Virus record (IMG/VR): IMGVR_UViG_3300036831_000241
Coordinates: 1 to 31,517 of that record
Reading direction: 5' to 3' (one strand)
Origin: a virus
DNA length: 31,517 nucleotides
In this document: one piece after another, positions 12,189 through 19,790 of the stretch
How the letters are laid out: every line of letters starts with the position of its first letter
Position numbering within the stretch: position 1 is the stretch's first letter
The notes under the pieces: model-generated
Told to the model about the DNA's origin: nothing
Database searches by the model: none
The model's input: only the letters and a program-made list of their open reading frames with translations
Position numbers and translations under genes: made by a program

Positions 12189-13205
12189 ATGGCCAGTAAC
12201 AGCTCCATCACGCTTCAGTCGGTAATCGACTACGCGCGCAGCTTCGGCGACTTACAGCCGGTACTCGCGGTCGGCGGTTATTCGCAGCAGCCAGCGCTCA
12301 CGATCGCCAACGACACGATGGCCGCGATGTGCAGCCCAGCGATCAATTGGAAGTGGAACCGCACCCGCATCCCACCCTTCTATACGAACAGTCTCCAGCA
12401 GGACTATGCAGTACCCGGCGTCGTTCGAGCGGGCTGGTTGGAGCACGGCTTCATCGTTGATATCAACAACACGGCCACGCCGCCGCCCCTGTGGCCCATT
12501 GAGACGGTTCGCGACCTCGAAGCAACCTCGTGGCAGTGGGGCCGCATCGGGCAAGTCGCCTGGCTGCCCAATGATCAGCTCACATACGGCACCTGGCAGG
12601 CGAATGCGACTTACACGAAGATCCTGGGTACGCCCGGCAATCCCGGCACGCCTCTGACTCAGATCGTCGACCCGAACGGGAATTTCTGGGCGGTCAGCAA
12701 CAACCTGAATGCGACGGTAACGACCGGCTCGACTCAACCCACTTGGCCGACCAGCCCGACGTTTCCGACTTACACGAACCCCACTCAGGCCGCAACGACG
12801 GTGACAGATGGAACAGTCGTTTGGGTTGCCATCAACCCTAAAGGCCAGGGATTCCGGGTGAACCCGCTGCCGCCGTCCTCCGGCCTTTATTACCAAATCA
12901 ATGTCATTGCCCAGATGCGGCCAGTGCAATTCACCGCCACCACCCAAACGCTGGACCCGATCCCGGACGACTATGCCAATTACTTCCGCCAGGGTTTCAT
13001 TGCGCACGCATACCGGCATTCCCCCGATCCGAAGATTCAAGCCAAGTTCAAAGTCGAGTTCGAACTCTGGACCGGCGCGATGGCGACTGCCGTTCGCCAG
13101 ATGGACCGGGAAAAAGAATCGAACGGAATCTACCCGAGTGAATCGGTGATGTCGAGCGGCTATCCAATCTACCCCGGTCCGGCCTATCCATTCCCCGTTT
13201 TCTAA
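12189..13205 (+). CDS. Tail adaptor/tube-type protein, shorter of two tandem paralogues
   Basis: A 338-aa protein. Its N-terminal block (TLQSVIDYAR through ALTIANDTM to INWKWNRTRI and QQDYAVPG) and its C-terminal block (DPIPDDYANYFRQGFIAHAY) match the corresponding parts of the next gene, so the two are paralogues. Between them, about 155-215, lies a small module with DPNGNFWAV and TVTDGTVVWV, which recurs in the third tail gene. The N/C framework resembles podovirus head-tail adaptor or tail-tube proteins that assemble under the portal. The gene starts three bases after the previous stop without an obvious ribosome-binding site. Confidence 0.65.
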   Translation: MASNSSITLQSVIDYARSFGDLQPVLAVGGYSQQPALTIANDTMAAMCSPAINWKWNRTRIPPFYTNSLQQDYAVPGVVRAGWLEHGFIVDINNTATPPPLWPIETVRDLEATSWQWGRIGQVAWLPNDQLTYGTWQANATYTKILGTPGNPGTPLTQIVDPNGNFWAVSNNLNATVTTGSTQPTWPTSPTFPTYTNPTQAATTVTDGTVVWVAINPKGQGFRVNPLPPSSGLYYQINVIAQMRPVQFTATTQTLDPIPDDYANYFRQGFIAHAYRHSPDPKIQAKFKVEFELWTGAMATAVRQMDREKESNGIYPSESVMSSGYPIYPGPAYPFPVF

Positions 13206-13216
13206 GGAGTTAATCA

Positions 13217-15430
13217 ATGGCATCAACAGTGACACTCGCGGACACCATCGACTGGGCGCTCCCGTTCTTGAGGTTCGCGCCGGTGACGATCGGAACATCG
13301 AACGAGCCCGCGATCACGTCGGCCAACACGATCTTACAAACCATTTTGGCCGCCCCGTTTAAGTGGCGCTGGAATCGAAAGACGCTCTCGATCAACACCG
13401 TTCCGGGCCAGCAAGACTATACGCTGAACGTCAATGACATGGGCTTTATGGAATTGGCGGATATTTCGCTCGGCGCATCTACTTTGCCAGGTCTTCAGTT
13501 TGGGTCTTCGCAGACCAGCATTAGTCCGTTCAACGTTCAGCCCTCATCGTTGATCACCCTCAATGAACAGTTTGCGTCCGATCAGGGTCAGTTTACGCGC
13601 TACACGGAAAACGTGATGGGATCGTACTCGATCAGTGGTGGTCAAATGACGGTTACTCACGCCAATTCTCCTACCGATGAGAACGACATCTTCGTTGAGA
13701 CATCGCAAACTGTCTCAATGCCCCAGTTCTTCACCTCGATTCAGATCGATAACAACGGCACCGGGGTAGGAAACTACGACAACGGTGGGGTCGGAATCGC
13801 GAAAGACGCGAATAACTTCCTTTGGGCGTCGCTGGATCGAAAGGGCGGCAATCTTCGCATCCAAATCAAGATCGCCGGAACGTCTACCTACCTCGCATCG
13901 GTTGCTTGGTCGGTTCCCAATGCCCCTTACCAGTTAGGGCTTTCACTCGTTTCTAACAGCGCTTGCGTCTGGGCGAACACAGGCTCAGGTTGGGTTTATG
14001 TGACCGGGGCTGACGCGTCGAGCTATTATGATTTTCGCACCGTTGGTAATTTGACCGGGTGGGCTCCAGGGTTCACCGTTGCCAGTCAGCTTGCAAGCAC
14101 CTGGGTCTACTCCAATTTTTTGTTTGGCTCTTATGGCACCGTCGGTTTACGTGACATTACACTTGTCACTAATCAAGATGGCACGCCATATGCTCAAGGA
14201 TCAGTGTTCACATTCACTGCTACCGCTGCTGACCCGAGGGCGGCTGCTTATTGTACAGTTTTTCAATACAACGTTACTACGAGCGCCCTAGCTCAGACGG
14301 GCGTCATCTTTGTGAATCGGGCCGGTAAGATTTACAATGACGGTGCCGCCCACATCATCTACTACAGCAATGGTGCACGGCGGTTAACAATCTCATCGTG
14401 GGGCAATCCCTATCCGCCCGGCCCCATCTTTGTAGCGAGTGCGCTCATTAACTCAGAGATCTTGACCGGGGCGGTTGTTGTGTCGGGTTTAACTCAGCTA
14501 AGTTTGGCGGGCACTGCCGGGGCCAGTTCCGTTTACGATCCGTTTTTGATTAACGACGGAACGAAATGGATCATGGCATACACAGTATCTCAAACGCTCA
14601 CGCCCGGTTATCCTGTTGCTGCCTATTCGTATGATCTTGTGACCTGGACGATGATAGGTCAGGATACGGCATCCGTTGGCTATGAAGGCACCAAGATTAT
14701 CAACTACAACGGCACATATTACCTAACCTGTAACGGCCCTTATGGCGCAGGCGCTAATGTGCCGCGCGTTTACTTGCTAGAATCGATGCAGTATGTGGGA
14801 ACGTTGAATATCACCATTCCGGCTCAGAATGTGACCGTCCCTCATATGATGGCGTTCTATTACAACAACGTTGAGTACGTCATCACATTCGATACAACCC
14901 AGTACAACAGCACTGCATGGACTTGGGGAAATTGGATTGTGTACGGCGCGAACGCTCCTGCAAGTTCGTTCTCTACTACAGGCTCTAATATATTTCCACT
15001 TGAGATTGCTGAAACACTCTCCCGTGGTTCTGAACAAGGTCGACCTACATTTATAGCGTTGCAAACTGACGATGATGCAGGGAACCTTACGTTTCGCGTG
15101 TTACCGGCCCCTGATCAGTCGTACAGCATCAGCGTTACCTACCAAGTAAAAGCGCCGCTTTTCAGTTCGCTAAGCCAAACATGGGCACCCGTACCCGATT
15201 TCATGGAGTACATCTACAACTGGGGCTTCCTGTCGCTCATGCTCGACTACAACGATTCGAGCAAGGCACAGCGCATGCGGCAGTTGTTCGTTGCTTCGCT
15301 GCTCGGAGCTTCCGAAGGATTGAGTGAGGCGGACAAGAATCTCTTCACGTATGCCTGGCTGGGCGACATGCGGCAGCAGCAAGCGGGTCAGCTATCCACT
15401 CAACTCGGTAATCAGGGCCGTGCAATTTAG
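13217..15430 (+). CDS. Tail adaptor paralogue with large lectin-like and beta-propeller insertion
   Basis: A 737-aa protein with AAGGAG before the ATG. Residues 1-120 and 590-737 are paralogous to the 338-aa protein upstream: DTIDWALPFLRF, SANTILQTILAAPFKWRWNR and QQDYTLN at the front; the GRPTFIALQTDDDAGNLTFR region and APVPDFMEYIYNWGFL at the back. Between them about 470 residues are inserted. Residues 125-320 look like a concanavalin-type beta-sandwich. Residues 400-580 look like a five-bladed propeller of the GH43/sialidase type, with YDPFLINDGTKWIMAY, SYDLVTW and GTKIINYNGTYYL blade signatures. I cannot verify a catalytic acid triad. The inserted DNA looks less GC-rich than its flanks. 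The protein probably combines tail structure with glycan binding or cleavage. Confidence 0.7.
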   Translation: MASTVTLADTIDWALPFLRFAPVTIGTSNEPAITSANTILQTILAAPFKWRWNRKTLSINTVPGQQDYTLNVNDMGFMELADISLGASTLPGLQFGSSQTSISPFNVQPSSLITLNEQFASDQGQFTRYTENVMGSYSISGGQMTVTHANSPTDENDIFVETSQTVSMPQFFTSIQIDNNGTGVGNYDNGGVGIAKDANNFLWASLDRKGGNLRIQIKIAGTSTYLASVAWSVPNAPYQLGLSLVSNSACVWANTGSGWVYVTGADASSYYDFRTVGNLTGWAPGFTVASQLASTWVYSNFLFGSYGTVGLRDITLVTNQDGTPYAQGSVFTFTATAADPRAAAYCTVFQYNVTTSALAQTGVIFVNRAGKIYNDGAAHIIYYSNGARRLTISSWGNPYPPGPIFVASALINSEILTGAVVVSGLTQLSLAGTAGASSVYDPFLINDGTKWIMAYTVSQTLTPGYPVAAYSYDLVTWTMIGQDTASVGYEGTKIINYNGTYYLTCNGPYGAGANVPRVYLLESMQYVGTLNITIPAQNVTVPHMMAFYYNNVEYVITFDTTQYNSTAWTWGNWIVYGANAPASSFSTTGSNIFPLEIAETLSRGSEQGRPTFIALQTDDDAGNLTFRVLPAPDQSYSISVTYQVKAPLFSSLSQTWAPVPDFMEYIYNWGFLSLMLDYNDSSKAQRMRQLFVASLLGASEGLSEADKNLFTYAWLGDMRQQQAGQLSTQLGNQGRAI

Positions 15431-15441
15431 GGGCAGAACAA

Positions 15442-18411
15442 ATGAACCAATCCCTCTTAACAGCGCACGGCGCTCAACCCGAGAAACCATCCCGCTACAA
15501 ACCCATCTGGACTGACCGGTTTTTTACTGGCTACTTCACAAACCGTAGTCCATTGCGATCGCCTTTGAGCGCGTTTTATGCAGAGGGCTGGAACCTCGGC
15601 AAGACTGACACACTCATCGACGGCTCGAATGTCGAAGTGTCGCCGCGCCTCACGCTGATCCGGCGGCCCGGCAATACCGCTTCTTCGCCTGCAATTCCGC
15701 AAGCTCCGAAAGGATTTTACTCGTTTCATCGGTCGGACGGAGTGATCTACCCTATCGTCGATACTCTCAGCGAGATTTACGCACTCACTTCCGGTACACT
15801 GACGACGCTCTATACAAAGACAACCGGAGCCGGTCAAGCAACGTTTCAGGGGATTGGAACTCAGTTGTATTGGGGTGACGGTACAACTGCGAAGGCTTGG
15901 GACTCAACGAACCCGACCATCACTGTACGGCAAATGGGCATTACCGCACCCGTGCAAGCTCCGGGTCTCGCGCGTATAGCCAACAGCGCAGGGACTGGCG
16001 CGACGATTACAGGCGCGAACTTTAGCGGTGGATATGTCAGCACGTCCCTCGGCTCGCGAGACTACGCCACACTCTCGATTGAGGCGTTTGTCAAGATCGG
16101 AACCGGTGCAACCGCAAACAGCGCCATTGCGAGTTTTGAATCGTCTCAAACCGGCTCCAGCCTGAACGTTTTCCACGTTCTTTATCTGAACTCATCTGGC
16201 GAAGTGTGCTATGCAATTCTGGACGGAAACACCGGCCAGATGAACGTAACCAATTCGCAGAAAGCCGTAACGGACAGCAACTGGCACATGGTCACGCTGA
16301 CAATGACTTATGCCGCGACGTTATATCAGGCAACCACGTTCACAAGTGGCACTCCCATAAAGCAAACGTCGGTCGGGGCACAAAACTACACTCCAGACTC
16401 AACCCTTCCGACGAACTTCGCTTATGTGAACGCTCCCGTGTTTTCATCCGGTCCATCGCCGCGCCAGATGCAAGTATCGATCTACGTTGACGGTCAATTG
16501 GCTGGTATATTCAACCCTTCCTTGGGAGCACTGTCTAATGCAGTTACAGGCTATTGGAGGCTTGGAAACTGTACCGGCTGGTCGGGCCAGTCATTCGGAG
16601 CATTCAACGGCTTACTCTCAAATGTTTCCATTTATACCGACGTCATTCCGGGACAAATGGCACGGTTCAATGAGCTGATGGTCGGCGGCGGATTGAGCGC
16701 ATACCAAGAGCAGGTCTTAGATATCCCGCCTCAATTTTACTGGTATCTTAACGAGACGAGCGGCACGACCGCCATAGATCAGGAATTCGTTAACAACGGT
16801 ACTTATCAGGGTTCGCCGACCTTGAACCAGAGCGCCCAGGCGGTCTATTTGCCTTACACGGCGAGCACGGCTTACTCTCAGGGGCAGTACATCGTTGATT
16901 CCAACGGCAATCTTCAGGCGTGTTCGTACTCTGGCACTTCAGGCTCAAGCGCTCCCTCTTGGAAAACAAACATCGGACAGTCAACCGTCGATGGAACCGT
17001 AACATGGGTAAACTCCGGGGCTGTGTCACTTACGCTGACGATCGGGACACAGTACGGATTTTGCTACGTGAACAAATACGGACATTTCAGTACGCTGTCG
17101 CCCTTGATGTCGCCTGTCGGCCCACGCACGGGCATTAACGTAACTATGGTAGGGCTATCGAGCCCCGATCCACAGGTCACGCAGATCGCGATTTTTCGCA
17201 CACCTGATGGCGGTACCACGCCGTTCTACATCGATTCAATCCCAAACCCCCCTACGGCGCTATGGGGCTTTGTCGATTTCACGCCTGAATCGAACCTCAA
17301 CGTGTTGATGGCAGGGCCACAGGCTCACTCGAACGATCCGCCGCCGCAAGGCTTGATCAACCTTGTTTATCACCTGGGCCGGATGTGGGGCAGCGTCGGC
17401 AATGTCCTCTATTGTTCCGGTGGTCCTGACACGCTTGTGGGAGATGGAAATGAAGCATGGCCTCCCGCTAACTCGTGGTCCTTTCCTTCTCCGATCACGC
17501 GGCTCGTTCCGACCGCGAGTGGTTTGATCGTCCTCACTTCGAGCGGCATTCAAATGATGGCCGGTGGACCGGCGATCTCGCAGTTTTATCCGCAGCCGAT
17601 GTTTGAGAAGATCGGCCTATCGAGCTATAACGCGCTCGACACGAACGGCACTCAGATTACTCTTTTCACGAGCGATAGGCAACTCATCACAATCGATCCG
17701 TCCACCGGTTTGGTGGATATTGGGTTCCCCATCGCCGATAAGCTCGCACAGCTCAGCCCAACCTCTGTTTACGTGACGCACCACCACAGCGGGCTTGATA
17801 ATGCGCTCTACATTGCGGACGGCTCAACGGGCTGGTATCGGTGTGTCCCCATGCAGCCGCCCGATTTCTCAATCACTGGGCCAGTCTGGTCGCCGAAGGC
17901 AACCGTGAACGGTGGCAACTGTGGGGCCATTGCTTCGATCGAGACCTCACCTGGCGTTTATCAACTCTTTGTCGGCAGCACGAGCGCGAATCAGCCGGTT
18001 CTAACCCGTGATTCGACCTATACGGCATTCAACGATGCCGGGTCTGCATATGACGCTTTCTTCACGGTCGGTTCAATCATTCTCGCGAATCCCGGTGAAT
18101 TGGCGGAGCTGAGTTTTCTCACGTGCGATTTCATCCGTGTTGGCTCCAGTCCATCCGTCTCAGTGCTGCTTGATGAGATTTCTGGTACATTTTCGCCGGT
18201 CATGAATGTTTCGGTGAGTGACCCGCCGCAAATATACGGCGCGACCGGCGCTCCGGTTTCTCTCTACGCGAATCGCTATTACTTCAGTCAAACAGGTCAA
18301 CCCGCATGGAGCCGTCATTTACAAGTCAAATGTGACTTCGGCAATAACGCTGTGATGAACGAGATCTTAAGCTCAACCATCTTTGGCGCGATCTTGGTGG
18401 AAGGAGCGTAG
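15442..18411 (+). CDS. Large tail-tube/nozzle-like protein with embedded LamG-like domain
   Basis: A 989-aa protein. The N-terminal segment (LIDGSNVEVSPRLTLIRRPG, about 58-77) is typical of podovirus tail-tube B or tail-stabilisation proteins. The later region (GRMWGSVGNVLYCSGG near 647-661; TRLVPTASGLIVLTSSGIQ near 686-704) continues the beta-propeller pattern of such nozzle proteins. Residues about 195-425 are an inserted LamG-like lectin fold, with WHMVTLTMTY, SIYVDGQLAGIF and FNGLLSNVSIYTD. A short module at 470-530 (GQYIVDSNGN and TVDGTVTWV) is shared with the protein at 12189-13205. It would form the tail nozzle and may bind cell-surface sugars through the insert. GGGG precedes the ATG weakly. 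Confidence 0.7.
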   Translation: MNQSLLTAHGAQPEKPSRYKPIWTDRFFTGYFTNRSPLRSPLSAFYAEGWNLGKTDTLIDGSNVEVSPRLTLIRRPGNTASSPAIPQAPKGFYSFHRSDGVIYPIVDTLSEIYALTSGTLTTLYTKTTGAGQATFQGIGTQLYWGDGTTAKAWDSTNPTITVRQMGITAPVQAPGLARIANSAGTGATITGANFSGGYVSTSLGSRDYATLSIEAFVKIGTGATANSAIASFESSQTGSSLNVFHVLYLNSSGEVCYAILDGNTGQMNVTNSQKAVTDSNWHMVTLTMTYAATLYQATTFTSGTPIKQTSVGAQNYTPDSTLPTNFAYVNAPVFSSGPSPRQMQVSIYVDGQLAGIFNPSLGALSNAVTGYWRLGNCTGWSGQSFGAFNGLLSNVSIYTDVIPGQMARFNELMVGGGLSAYQEQVLDIPPQFYWYLNETSGTTAIDQEFVNNGTYQGSPTLNQSAQAVYLPYTASTAYSQGQYIVDSNGNLQACSYSGTSGSSAPSWKTNIGQSTVDGTVTWVNSGAVSLTLTIGTQYGFCYVNKYGHFSTLSPLMSPVGPRTGINVTMVGLSSPDPQVTQIAIFRTPDGGTTPFYIDSIPNPPTALWGFVDFTPESNLNVLMAGPQAHSNDPPPQGLINLVYHLGRMWGSVGNVLYCSGGPDTLVGDGNEAWPPANSWSFPSPITRLVPTASGLIVLTSSGIQMMAGGPAISQFYPQPMFEKIGLSSYNALDTNGTQITLFTSDRQLITIDPSTGLVDIGFPIADKLAQLSPTSVYVTHHHSGLDNALYIADGSTGWYRCVPMQPPDFSITGPVWSPKATVNGGNCGAIASIETSPGVYQLFVGSTSANQPVLTRDSTYTAFNDAGSAYDAFFTVGSIILANPGELAELSFLTCDFIRVGSSPSVSVLLDEISGTFSPVMNVSVSDPPQIYGATGAPVSLYANRYYFSQTGQPAWSRHLQVKCDFGNNAVMNEILSSTIFGAILVEGA

Positions 18412-19335
18412 ATGGACACCCTACAAAGGGCGTCGATTCCTCCGGCCAATCTCGCCTCGTACTCACCGAAGCCGGCCCCGGTCAGTAACGCCCCGGCGGC
18501 AAACGGGCAAATAAGTGTCTCGGCATTGCGCTCGCCGATGCCGAATTCGCAACCCGTCACAAGCCCGTTTTATCCGTCAGTCGTTAGACACCAAACGCTT
18601 CCGGCTTCACTATCAAAGGTGGCCAGCTCATCGACGGCTTCAGGCCAGTCTCAGGCGAATCAAGCGGCAAATCAGGTCTACAACGTCCTGAACAGCAAGA
18701 TCGAAAACCTAAAACAGCAACAGACCACAATCATCAATAATTACCCGACGCCATCGCTCTTGCCATTACCGCCCGCACTTGGCAACTGGACGCAGGTGAA
18801 TTACGGGGGCTCAATCTCGGATAACGAGAACGGATACATCTATCTTCAGGCACCCGCGTCATCTGCCTATTCCTTGCGCATGCTGACGTTGCCAATCAAT
18901 GGCACGGCTTATACTCTCAAGGCTTCCTTCCGGCAGTTGTTTCCGGTGTCGTGGACTACAAGCGGACCTAGTTATGCGTGTGGCCTGGTGCTTCGAAACA
19001 GTACCAGTGGCCAGGTTATCTTCTTCTACGTCTCGTTCTTTGGCGGCATTCAGTTTGGCGTTAATCAGTACAGCAATCCGACAACCTACACTGGAACAGC
19101 ATTCTATACGGGCTGGCCGACGTGGGTGAACAATACATGCATTGGCATCCAAGAAACAGCCACGACCCGCATATATTCGTGGTCCAACGATGACGGCTTG
19201 CATTGGATGCCTGCTTATAGTGAACCGGCTGGCACCTTCACTGCGCCTGATCAGGTTGGAATCTGCGCGGACTCCGAGGACGCGGCCTCGGCTGTCGGAA
19301 TCACGTTGAACGGCTGGCAACTGACCACGCCCTAA
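18412..19335 (+). CDS. Fibre-like protein: Pro/Ser-rich N-terminus, coiled coil, C-terminal beta domain
   Basis: A 307-aa protein starting directly at the previous stop, with AAGGAG in place. Residues 1-75 are Pro/Ser/Ala-rich and likely extended. Residues 78-110 (QANQAANQVYNVLNSKIENL onward) form a short coiled coil that could trimerise. Residues 122-307 are a beta-rich domain rich in Trp, Tyr, Gly and Asn, ending in LNGWQLTTP, with a lectin-like appearance. The architecture and position suggest a short tail fibre or receptor-binding protein. I cannot identify a specific family, and enzymatic residues are not evident. Confidence 0.55.
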   Translation: MDTLQRASIPPANLASYSPKPAPVSNAPAANGQISVSALRSPMPNSQPVTSPFYPSVVRHQTLPASLSKVASSSTASGQSQANQAANQVYNVLNSKIENLKQQQTTIINNYPTPSLLPLPPALGNWTQVNYGGSISDNENGYIYLQAPASSAYSLRMLTLPINGTAYTLKASFRQLFPVSWTTSGPSYACGLVLRNSTSGQVIFFYVSFFGGIQFGVNQYSNPTTYTGTAFYTGWPTWVNNTCIGIQETATTRIYSWSNDDGLHWMPAYSEPAGTFTAPDQVGICADSEDAASAVGITLNGWQLTTP

Positions 19336-19394: not shown

Positions 19395-19790
19395 ATGAAG
19401 ACGATCGCGTACCGCAGCCTGGACGAATCCGACAAGGCCCGCGTCAGTGAATGGCTAAAGAACGACCCCGAGCACCAGACGGCTGATTGCTCGCTGTTCA
19501 CCGATGCCGCGCCGGGCCGTACTCAGTTCGCAGTCGATGAGGACGGAGCGCCGGTGTTCTATGTCTGCGTCGAGAACGTCGCCCGCGTACACATCCAATT
19601 CGAGCCGGGCGGCGGCACACTGAAAAACGCAAAAACGCTCATCACTGGCTTCCGCTGGCTGATCGCCAATCTGAAGCAGCGCGGGTACCACGAACTCATC
19701 TTTGATTCCCGCTTTCAACCGCTCATACGCTTCTGCGAGAAGGCTATGGGTTTCCTTAAGAGAGAGCAGGATTACTCGGCGAGGCTGTAA
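19395..19790 (+). CDS. GNAT-like phage protein
   Basis: 131 aa. The order FYVCVENVARVHIQF (beta strands), a helix (NAKTLITGFRWLIANLKQRG), HELIFDS, then a final helix with AMGFLKREQDY resembles the acetyltransferase fold in its second half. The acetyl-CoA loop (Q/RxxGxG/A) is not recognisable, so catalysis is doubtful. Small degenerate GNAT-like proteins occur in podovirus tail modules. A 6-bp hairpin at 19352-19366 lies in the upstream spacer. A four-base gap follows to the next gene. Confidence 0.5.
   Translation: MKTIAYRSLDESDKARVSEWLKNDPEHQTADCSLFTDAAPGRTQFAVDEDGAPVFYVCVENVARVHIQFEPGGGTLKNAKTLITGFRWLIANLKQRGYHELIFDSRFQPLIRFCEKAMGFLKREQDYSARL

Follow-up and report, generated by a model that had tools for sequence, protein, structure and literature searches.

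Phage domains that bind or cut glycans are usually carried on fibres and spikes. A 737-residue open reading frame in virus record IMGVR_UViG_3300036831_000241, which we analysed over its entire 31.5 kb (31,517 nt, hereafter the window), raises the question of whether a core tail component can carry them as well. A preliminary description, made from the sequence alone, had proposed that sugar recognition or hydrolysis was grafted onto such a component here. The insertion into a core tail adaptor is real, the inserted cassette is of a lectin-plus-hydrolase-like type, and its module family is undescribed in the libraries that we used. The insertion and both folds of the earlier proposal stand, whereas hydrolysis is what we infer. 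The explanation that we favour, with a probability of roughly 0.6, is that a lectin-like sandwich and a glycosidase-type propeller, lodged in an adaptor hairpin and displayed at the phage neck, bind host glycans and hydrolyse or trim them.

The window derives from a soil virus that infects bacteria, namely a short-tailed relative of Acidobacteria phage Tunturi_3. Its closest isolate is this Tunturiibacter phage, a podovirus (PMC11924767), and the two major head proteins are 62% identical. Genes for a terminase, an SU10-type portal and the major head protein lie upstream of the adaptor locus, where the 737-aa frame, a genuine gene, is directly preceded by a 338-aa paralogue and directly followed by a gene for a 989-aa nozzle-like protein. 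The order portal, major head protein, adaptor 1, adaptor 2, nozzle is common to the window, Tunturi_3 and the relatives L016 and L018, and it places the locus between portal/capsid genes and a nozzle gene, as is characteristic of SU10_adaptor proteins.

The 737-aa protein is an SU10-type head-tail adaptor, the second of two in this phage. Because the insert splits the domain, no Pfam family matches the intact protein; with the insert removed, its flanks score 41.4 bits (E = 2.7e-10; cut-off 27) against SU10_adaptor (PF24175), compared with 45.8 bits for the bare protein of L018 and 33.0 bits for that of L016. Tunturi_3 gp12 and gp13 are orthologues of the window's two adaptors, and BLAST of the 737-aa protein against gp13 (PP885686) or L018 aligns the two ends and nothing else, at 42-51% and 41-50% identity, respectively. 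The ends had previously been recognised by their resemblance to the 338-aa paralogue, which exists but is weak (33% over 98 aa, 32% over 63 aa), whereas the true orthologues match strongly. With gp11 of Kuravirus SU10 the window adaptor has the core profile (PF24175) and the order of portal and nozzle neighbours in common, although gp11 is only 250 aa long and lacks such a module, and a profile comparison of the insertion hairpin with gp11 gave no significant alignment.

An insert of about 501 residues (residues ~85-585) sits in the hairpin turn of the adaptor. This placement follows from the bare adaptors of L018 and L016, whose hairpin reads GFEEVASVAD-IGGLN-KEITFKKVLALDG; against both of them the best empty-site cut falls after residue 84 and before residue 586. 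Relatives of the module in other viruses confirm the bounds independently, since their homology starts at about residue 90, directly past the adaptor hairpin, and stops at about residue 583. The insert is thus present as the preliminary description had claimed, but it is slightly larger and starts earlier than the 125-590 given there.

Scanning with the C-terminal part of the adaptor recovered 28 viral loci (18 distinct proteins), none with the insert. The homologous adaptors are 235-313 aa long in 27 of these loci, and the remaining one, L019, is a 50-aa fragment; homologue L037 is truncated by its contig end. Among the adaptor homologues sampled, only that of the window has the large insert. 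In other orthologues, including the 304-aa gp13 of Tunturi_3, a small module of ~70 aa occupies an earlier loop that lies between QDYTV and the hairpin, and the 338-aa paralogue has a small module at a third place; the adaptor fold therefore tolerates additions at several loops. One could argue that the central region belongs intrinsically to adaptors of this class and was lost elsewhere. Nothing beyond the one protein speaks for this, and the bare orthologues in relatives, the Tunturi_3 orthologue without the insert, the 27 sampled adaptors that lack it and the occurrence of the module elsewhere, alone or on other proteins, make it extremely improbable.

Our reading does depend on a single assembled contig, and the open reading frame might be a chimera in which assembly joined an adaptor to an unrelated tail protein. 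The metagenome-type nature of this single record and a third-position GC (GC3) of 0.76 before the first join but 0.58 after it would fit such an artefact. However, the frame is open across both joins, these lie in the same hairpin turn with both adaptor halves complete, and GC3 is still low (0.56) in the C part of the adaptor itself, past the second join, so that a chimera is very unlikely. For the same reason, low GC does not mark the insert as had been supposed: at 51.5% it is below the N flank (55.6%), but the C flank has 52.2%, and its GC3 is as low as the 0.58 of the insert. A duplicated junction, suggested earlier from similar peptides at the borders, had to be abandoned as well. The peptide LNEQFASDQGQF is found ~30 residues into the insert, where it represents an N-terminal motif that belongs to the module itself, with equivalents in non-adaptor relatives (LSEAFTSDTGQF in L056 and FSENFSADNGQF in L040), and the borders share only SDQGQ/SEQGR, a five-residue likeness that 1.6% of the insert's own 12-mers equal.

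Table 1. Features of the adaptor locus (positions in the window; residues are those of the 737-aa protein).
Feature	Positions	Strand	Basis
338-aa adaptor paralogue, adjacent	12189..13205	+	Tunturi_3 gp12 orthologue, 46%; small module in another loop
737-aa SU10-type adaptor with internal module	13217..15430	+	ORF; end identity to orthologues; SU10_adaptor score
Adaptor core, N part, residues 1-84, last strand is hairpin GFMELADIS	13217..13468	+	50% identity to L018 residues 1-83
Inserted two-domain module, residues ~85-585	13469..14971	+	Best empty-site cut 84/585 against L018 and L016; 13 viral relatives
Predicted concanavalin-type beta-sandwich, CBM66-like, residues ~111-307	13547..14137	+	Model residues 27-223; 4b1m match
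Predicted five-bladed GH43/62/68-like propeller, residues ~308-584	14138..14968	+	Z 18-20.6 to GH62, GH43, GH159 and GH68 enzymes
D313, blade 1, candidate catalytic base/nucleophile	14153..14155	+	13/13 phage copies; G in Haladaptatus protein
D441, blade 3, candidate pKa modulator/stabiliser	14537..14539	+	12/12 phage copies and Haladaptatus
E490, blade 4, candidate general acid	14684..14686	+	12/12 phage copies and Haladaptatus
H543, blade 5, candidate active-site histidine	14843..14845	+	11/12 phage copies and Haladaptatus
Adaptor core, C part, residues 586-737	14972..15427	+	41-52% identity to orthologues
989-aa nozzle-like protein after adaptor	15442..18411	+	Ends only: 37% to L016/L018 over ~480-500 aa

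Thirteen further viral contigs encode the module, with identities of 28-47% across as many as ~490 aa (E down to 6e-137). These relatives were found by a hand-made, spaced DNA pattern that rests on columns common to the window protein and a Haladaptatus protein; scanned over IMG/VR, it retrieved 19 stretches, 13 of them encoding the module. Sequence searches of viral contigs with the insert or its halves as query yielded no relatives, genome contigs gave no matches when scanned once with the whole protein and once with the adaptor, and a first motif pattern (EG..I...NG.YYL) led to four loci that were irrelevant or distant. The module is absent from 50,697 phage records, and among plasmids tblastn recovered a single relative, from Haladaptatus salinisoli, with 24% identity across both domains; this is the only cellular relative found. 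The plasmid protein (L020:5647-7473), annotated as hypothetical, has a Tat-like signal and the same two domains.

Among the viral carriers are tail proteins of 1779 aa and 1705 aa, besides several others. In L046 the module is part of a tail-protein fusion (phrog_1101, E = 3e-302), and in L056 and L047 it forms stand-alone proteins of 508 and 521 aa encoded behind tail-tip and tail-fibre genes. Since the same module is joined to tail-tip proteins or stands beside them in other contigs, it looks like a mobile cassette that moves among unrelated viruses. At least 14 viral copies make up this conserved family. None of the profile libraries that we used recognises it, its members having no meaningful sequence-profile match in Pfam, PHROGs, NCBIfam or PDB.

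Because MAFFT misaligned mixed sets of adaptor pieces and modules, the structure was predicted from the insert alone with 12 relatives (13 sequences). The resulting AlphaFold2 model (mean pLDDT 85.2, pTM 0.87) consists of strands almost throughout, whereas a single-sequence run on the whole 737-aa protein reached a pLDDT of only 32. Both domains that the preliminary description had read from the sequence appear in the model. The concanavalin-type sandwich has the CBM66 fold, matching 4b1m_C with Z 18.4 (155 of 161 residues aligned, 2.3 A), and it also matches the phage receptor-binding domains of mycobacteriophage TM4 gp23 (Z 19.3) and Douge gp20 (Z 18.6). Its identity to these phage domains and to the fructan-binding CBM66 module is 18% or less.

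The second domain is predicted to be a five-bladed propeller of the type found in GH43-related hydrolases, and the YDPFL motif and the later blades noted earlier are real. In fold it is like GH43, GH62, GH68 and GH159 hydrolases (Z about 19-20.6), but it lies within a phage structural protein, and the GH43 profile (PF04616) matched neither the window, searched to E = 10, nor 12 relatives, searched to E = 1. The earlier label "GH43-like" is therefore right, and "GH43" would be wrong. The top viral-model match in BFVD was A0A140F3L4 of Pyrobaculum filamentous virus 1 (E = 1.3e-20, 19% identity, 443 columns), an uncharacterised protein of an archaeal filamentous virus, with a single match that spans both domains.

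The innermost strands of the five blades start near D313, D375/H379, D441, E490 and H543. D313, D375, D441 and E490 are invariant in every phage copy that covers them. Successive spacings along D313, D441, E490 and H543 are 128, 49 and 53, compared with 128 and 52 in the triad of the GH32 enzyme BT1760 (PMC6560043) and 107, 56 and 61 for D14, D121, E177 and H238 of a GH43 xylosidase (PMC5919610). Judged from sequence spacing, D313/D441/E490 thus form a putative acidic triad (D, D, E) like that of GH43, GH62, GH68, GH159 and GH32 hydrolases, although none of these families is matched by sequence. The Haladaptatus protein may be inactive, since both D313 and D375 are replaced in it.

The conservation and spacing of these acidic residues support, but do not prove, an enzyme. 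A cassette that only binds, with a lectin and a non-catalytic propeller serving as a receptor-binding protein or as extra decoration, would account for the likeness of the sandwich to phage receptor-binding domains, for the missing catalytic base in the Haladaptatus relative, where D313 is a glycine, and for the lack of a GH family match. These last two points also weigh against our own reading, as does the fact that a common propeller fold is no proof of catalysis. Nevertheless, four acidic residues have stayed invariant in the phage copies despite identities down to 28%, and a plain scaffold would need no triad with glycosidase spacing. We consider pure binding unlikely on these grounds, while regarding it as the most serious competitor to glycan hydrolysis.

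In our reading, a mobile two-domain cassette occupies a surface beta-hairpin turn of the second head-tail adaptor and combines binding with hydrolysis. In SU10, twelve adaptors connect the portal to the nozzle and hold the long tail fibres (PMC9509320). By analogy, the window adaptors would form a ring, and the cassettes would thus stand around the tail neck. The sandwich would bind a glycan on the host surface or an exopolysaccharide, the propeller would hydrolyse or trim it via D313/D441/E490, and the phage might in this way reach its receptor or settle on it. A structural part may then double as adsorption apparatus. The host of the nearest isolate relative is an Acidobacterium, and phages of that group are little known; the candidate triad makes the question of enzymatic activity directly testable.

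A bolder version, which we put forward tentatively and as somewhat doubtful, is that the module represents an undescribed glycoside-hydrolase family that is always coupled to a lectin and moves as a cassette among unrelated viruses, being carried by tail tips of other tailed phages, by the adaptor of a short-tailed phage and perhaps by an archaeal filamentous virus. Here it would arm the neck ring and replace part of the tail-fibre role. The fibres of SU10 are separate proteins, and Tunturi_3 has separate tail-fibre genes between its adaptor and a later nozzle-like gene, whereas in the window no gene in this interval could be recognised as fibre-like; this is only suggestive, because the record may be incomplete.

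Both ends of the 989-aa nozzle-like protein are common to the L016 and L018 nozzles, but its middle (about residues 154-520, LamG-like by eye) differs, and the nozzle therefore seems, from this comparison, to take varied central additions too. Copies of the small module, with the pattern VDSNGN.Q..T.AG.TG...P.W......T.DG...W.N.G, are present not only in adaptor 1 but also in relatives' adaptors and in nozzles; between residues 469-529 of the nozzle (16846-17028) and part of Tunturi_3 gp13, identity is 49%. The C-terminal half of a 307-aa protein (18412-19335), which matches phrog_19068 of unknown function (E = 1.3e-8), reads as a further lectin-like sandwich, and a 131-aa protein (19395-19790) that reads like an acetyltransferase fold has conserved counterparts, flanked by virion genes, in L016 and L018. 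Bigger nozzles, of 1183-1188 aa (L018:6406-9972) and with more repeated small modules, occur in the phages whose adaptors are bare, as if the decoration load had moved between proteins.
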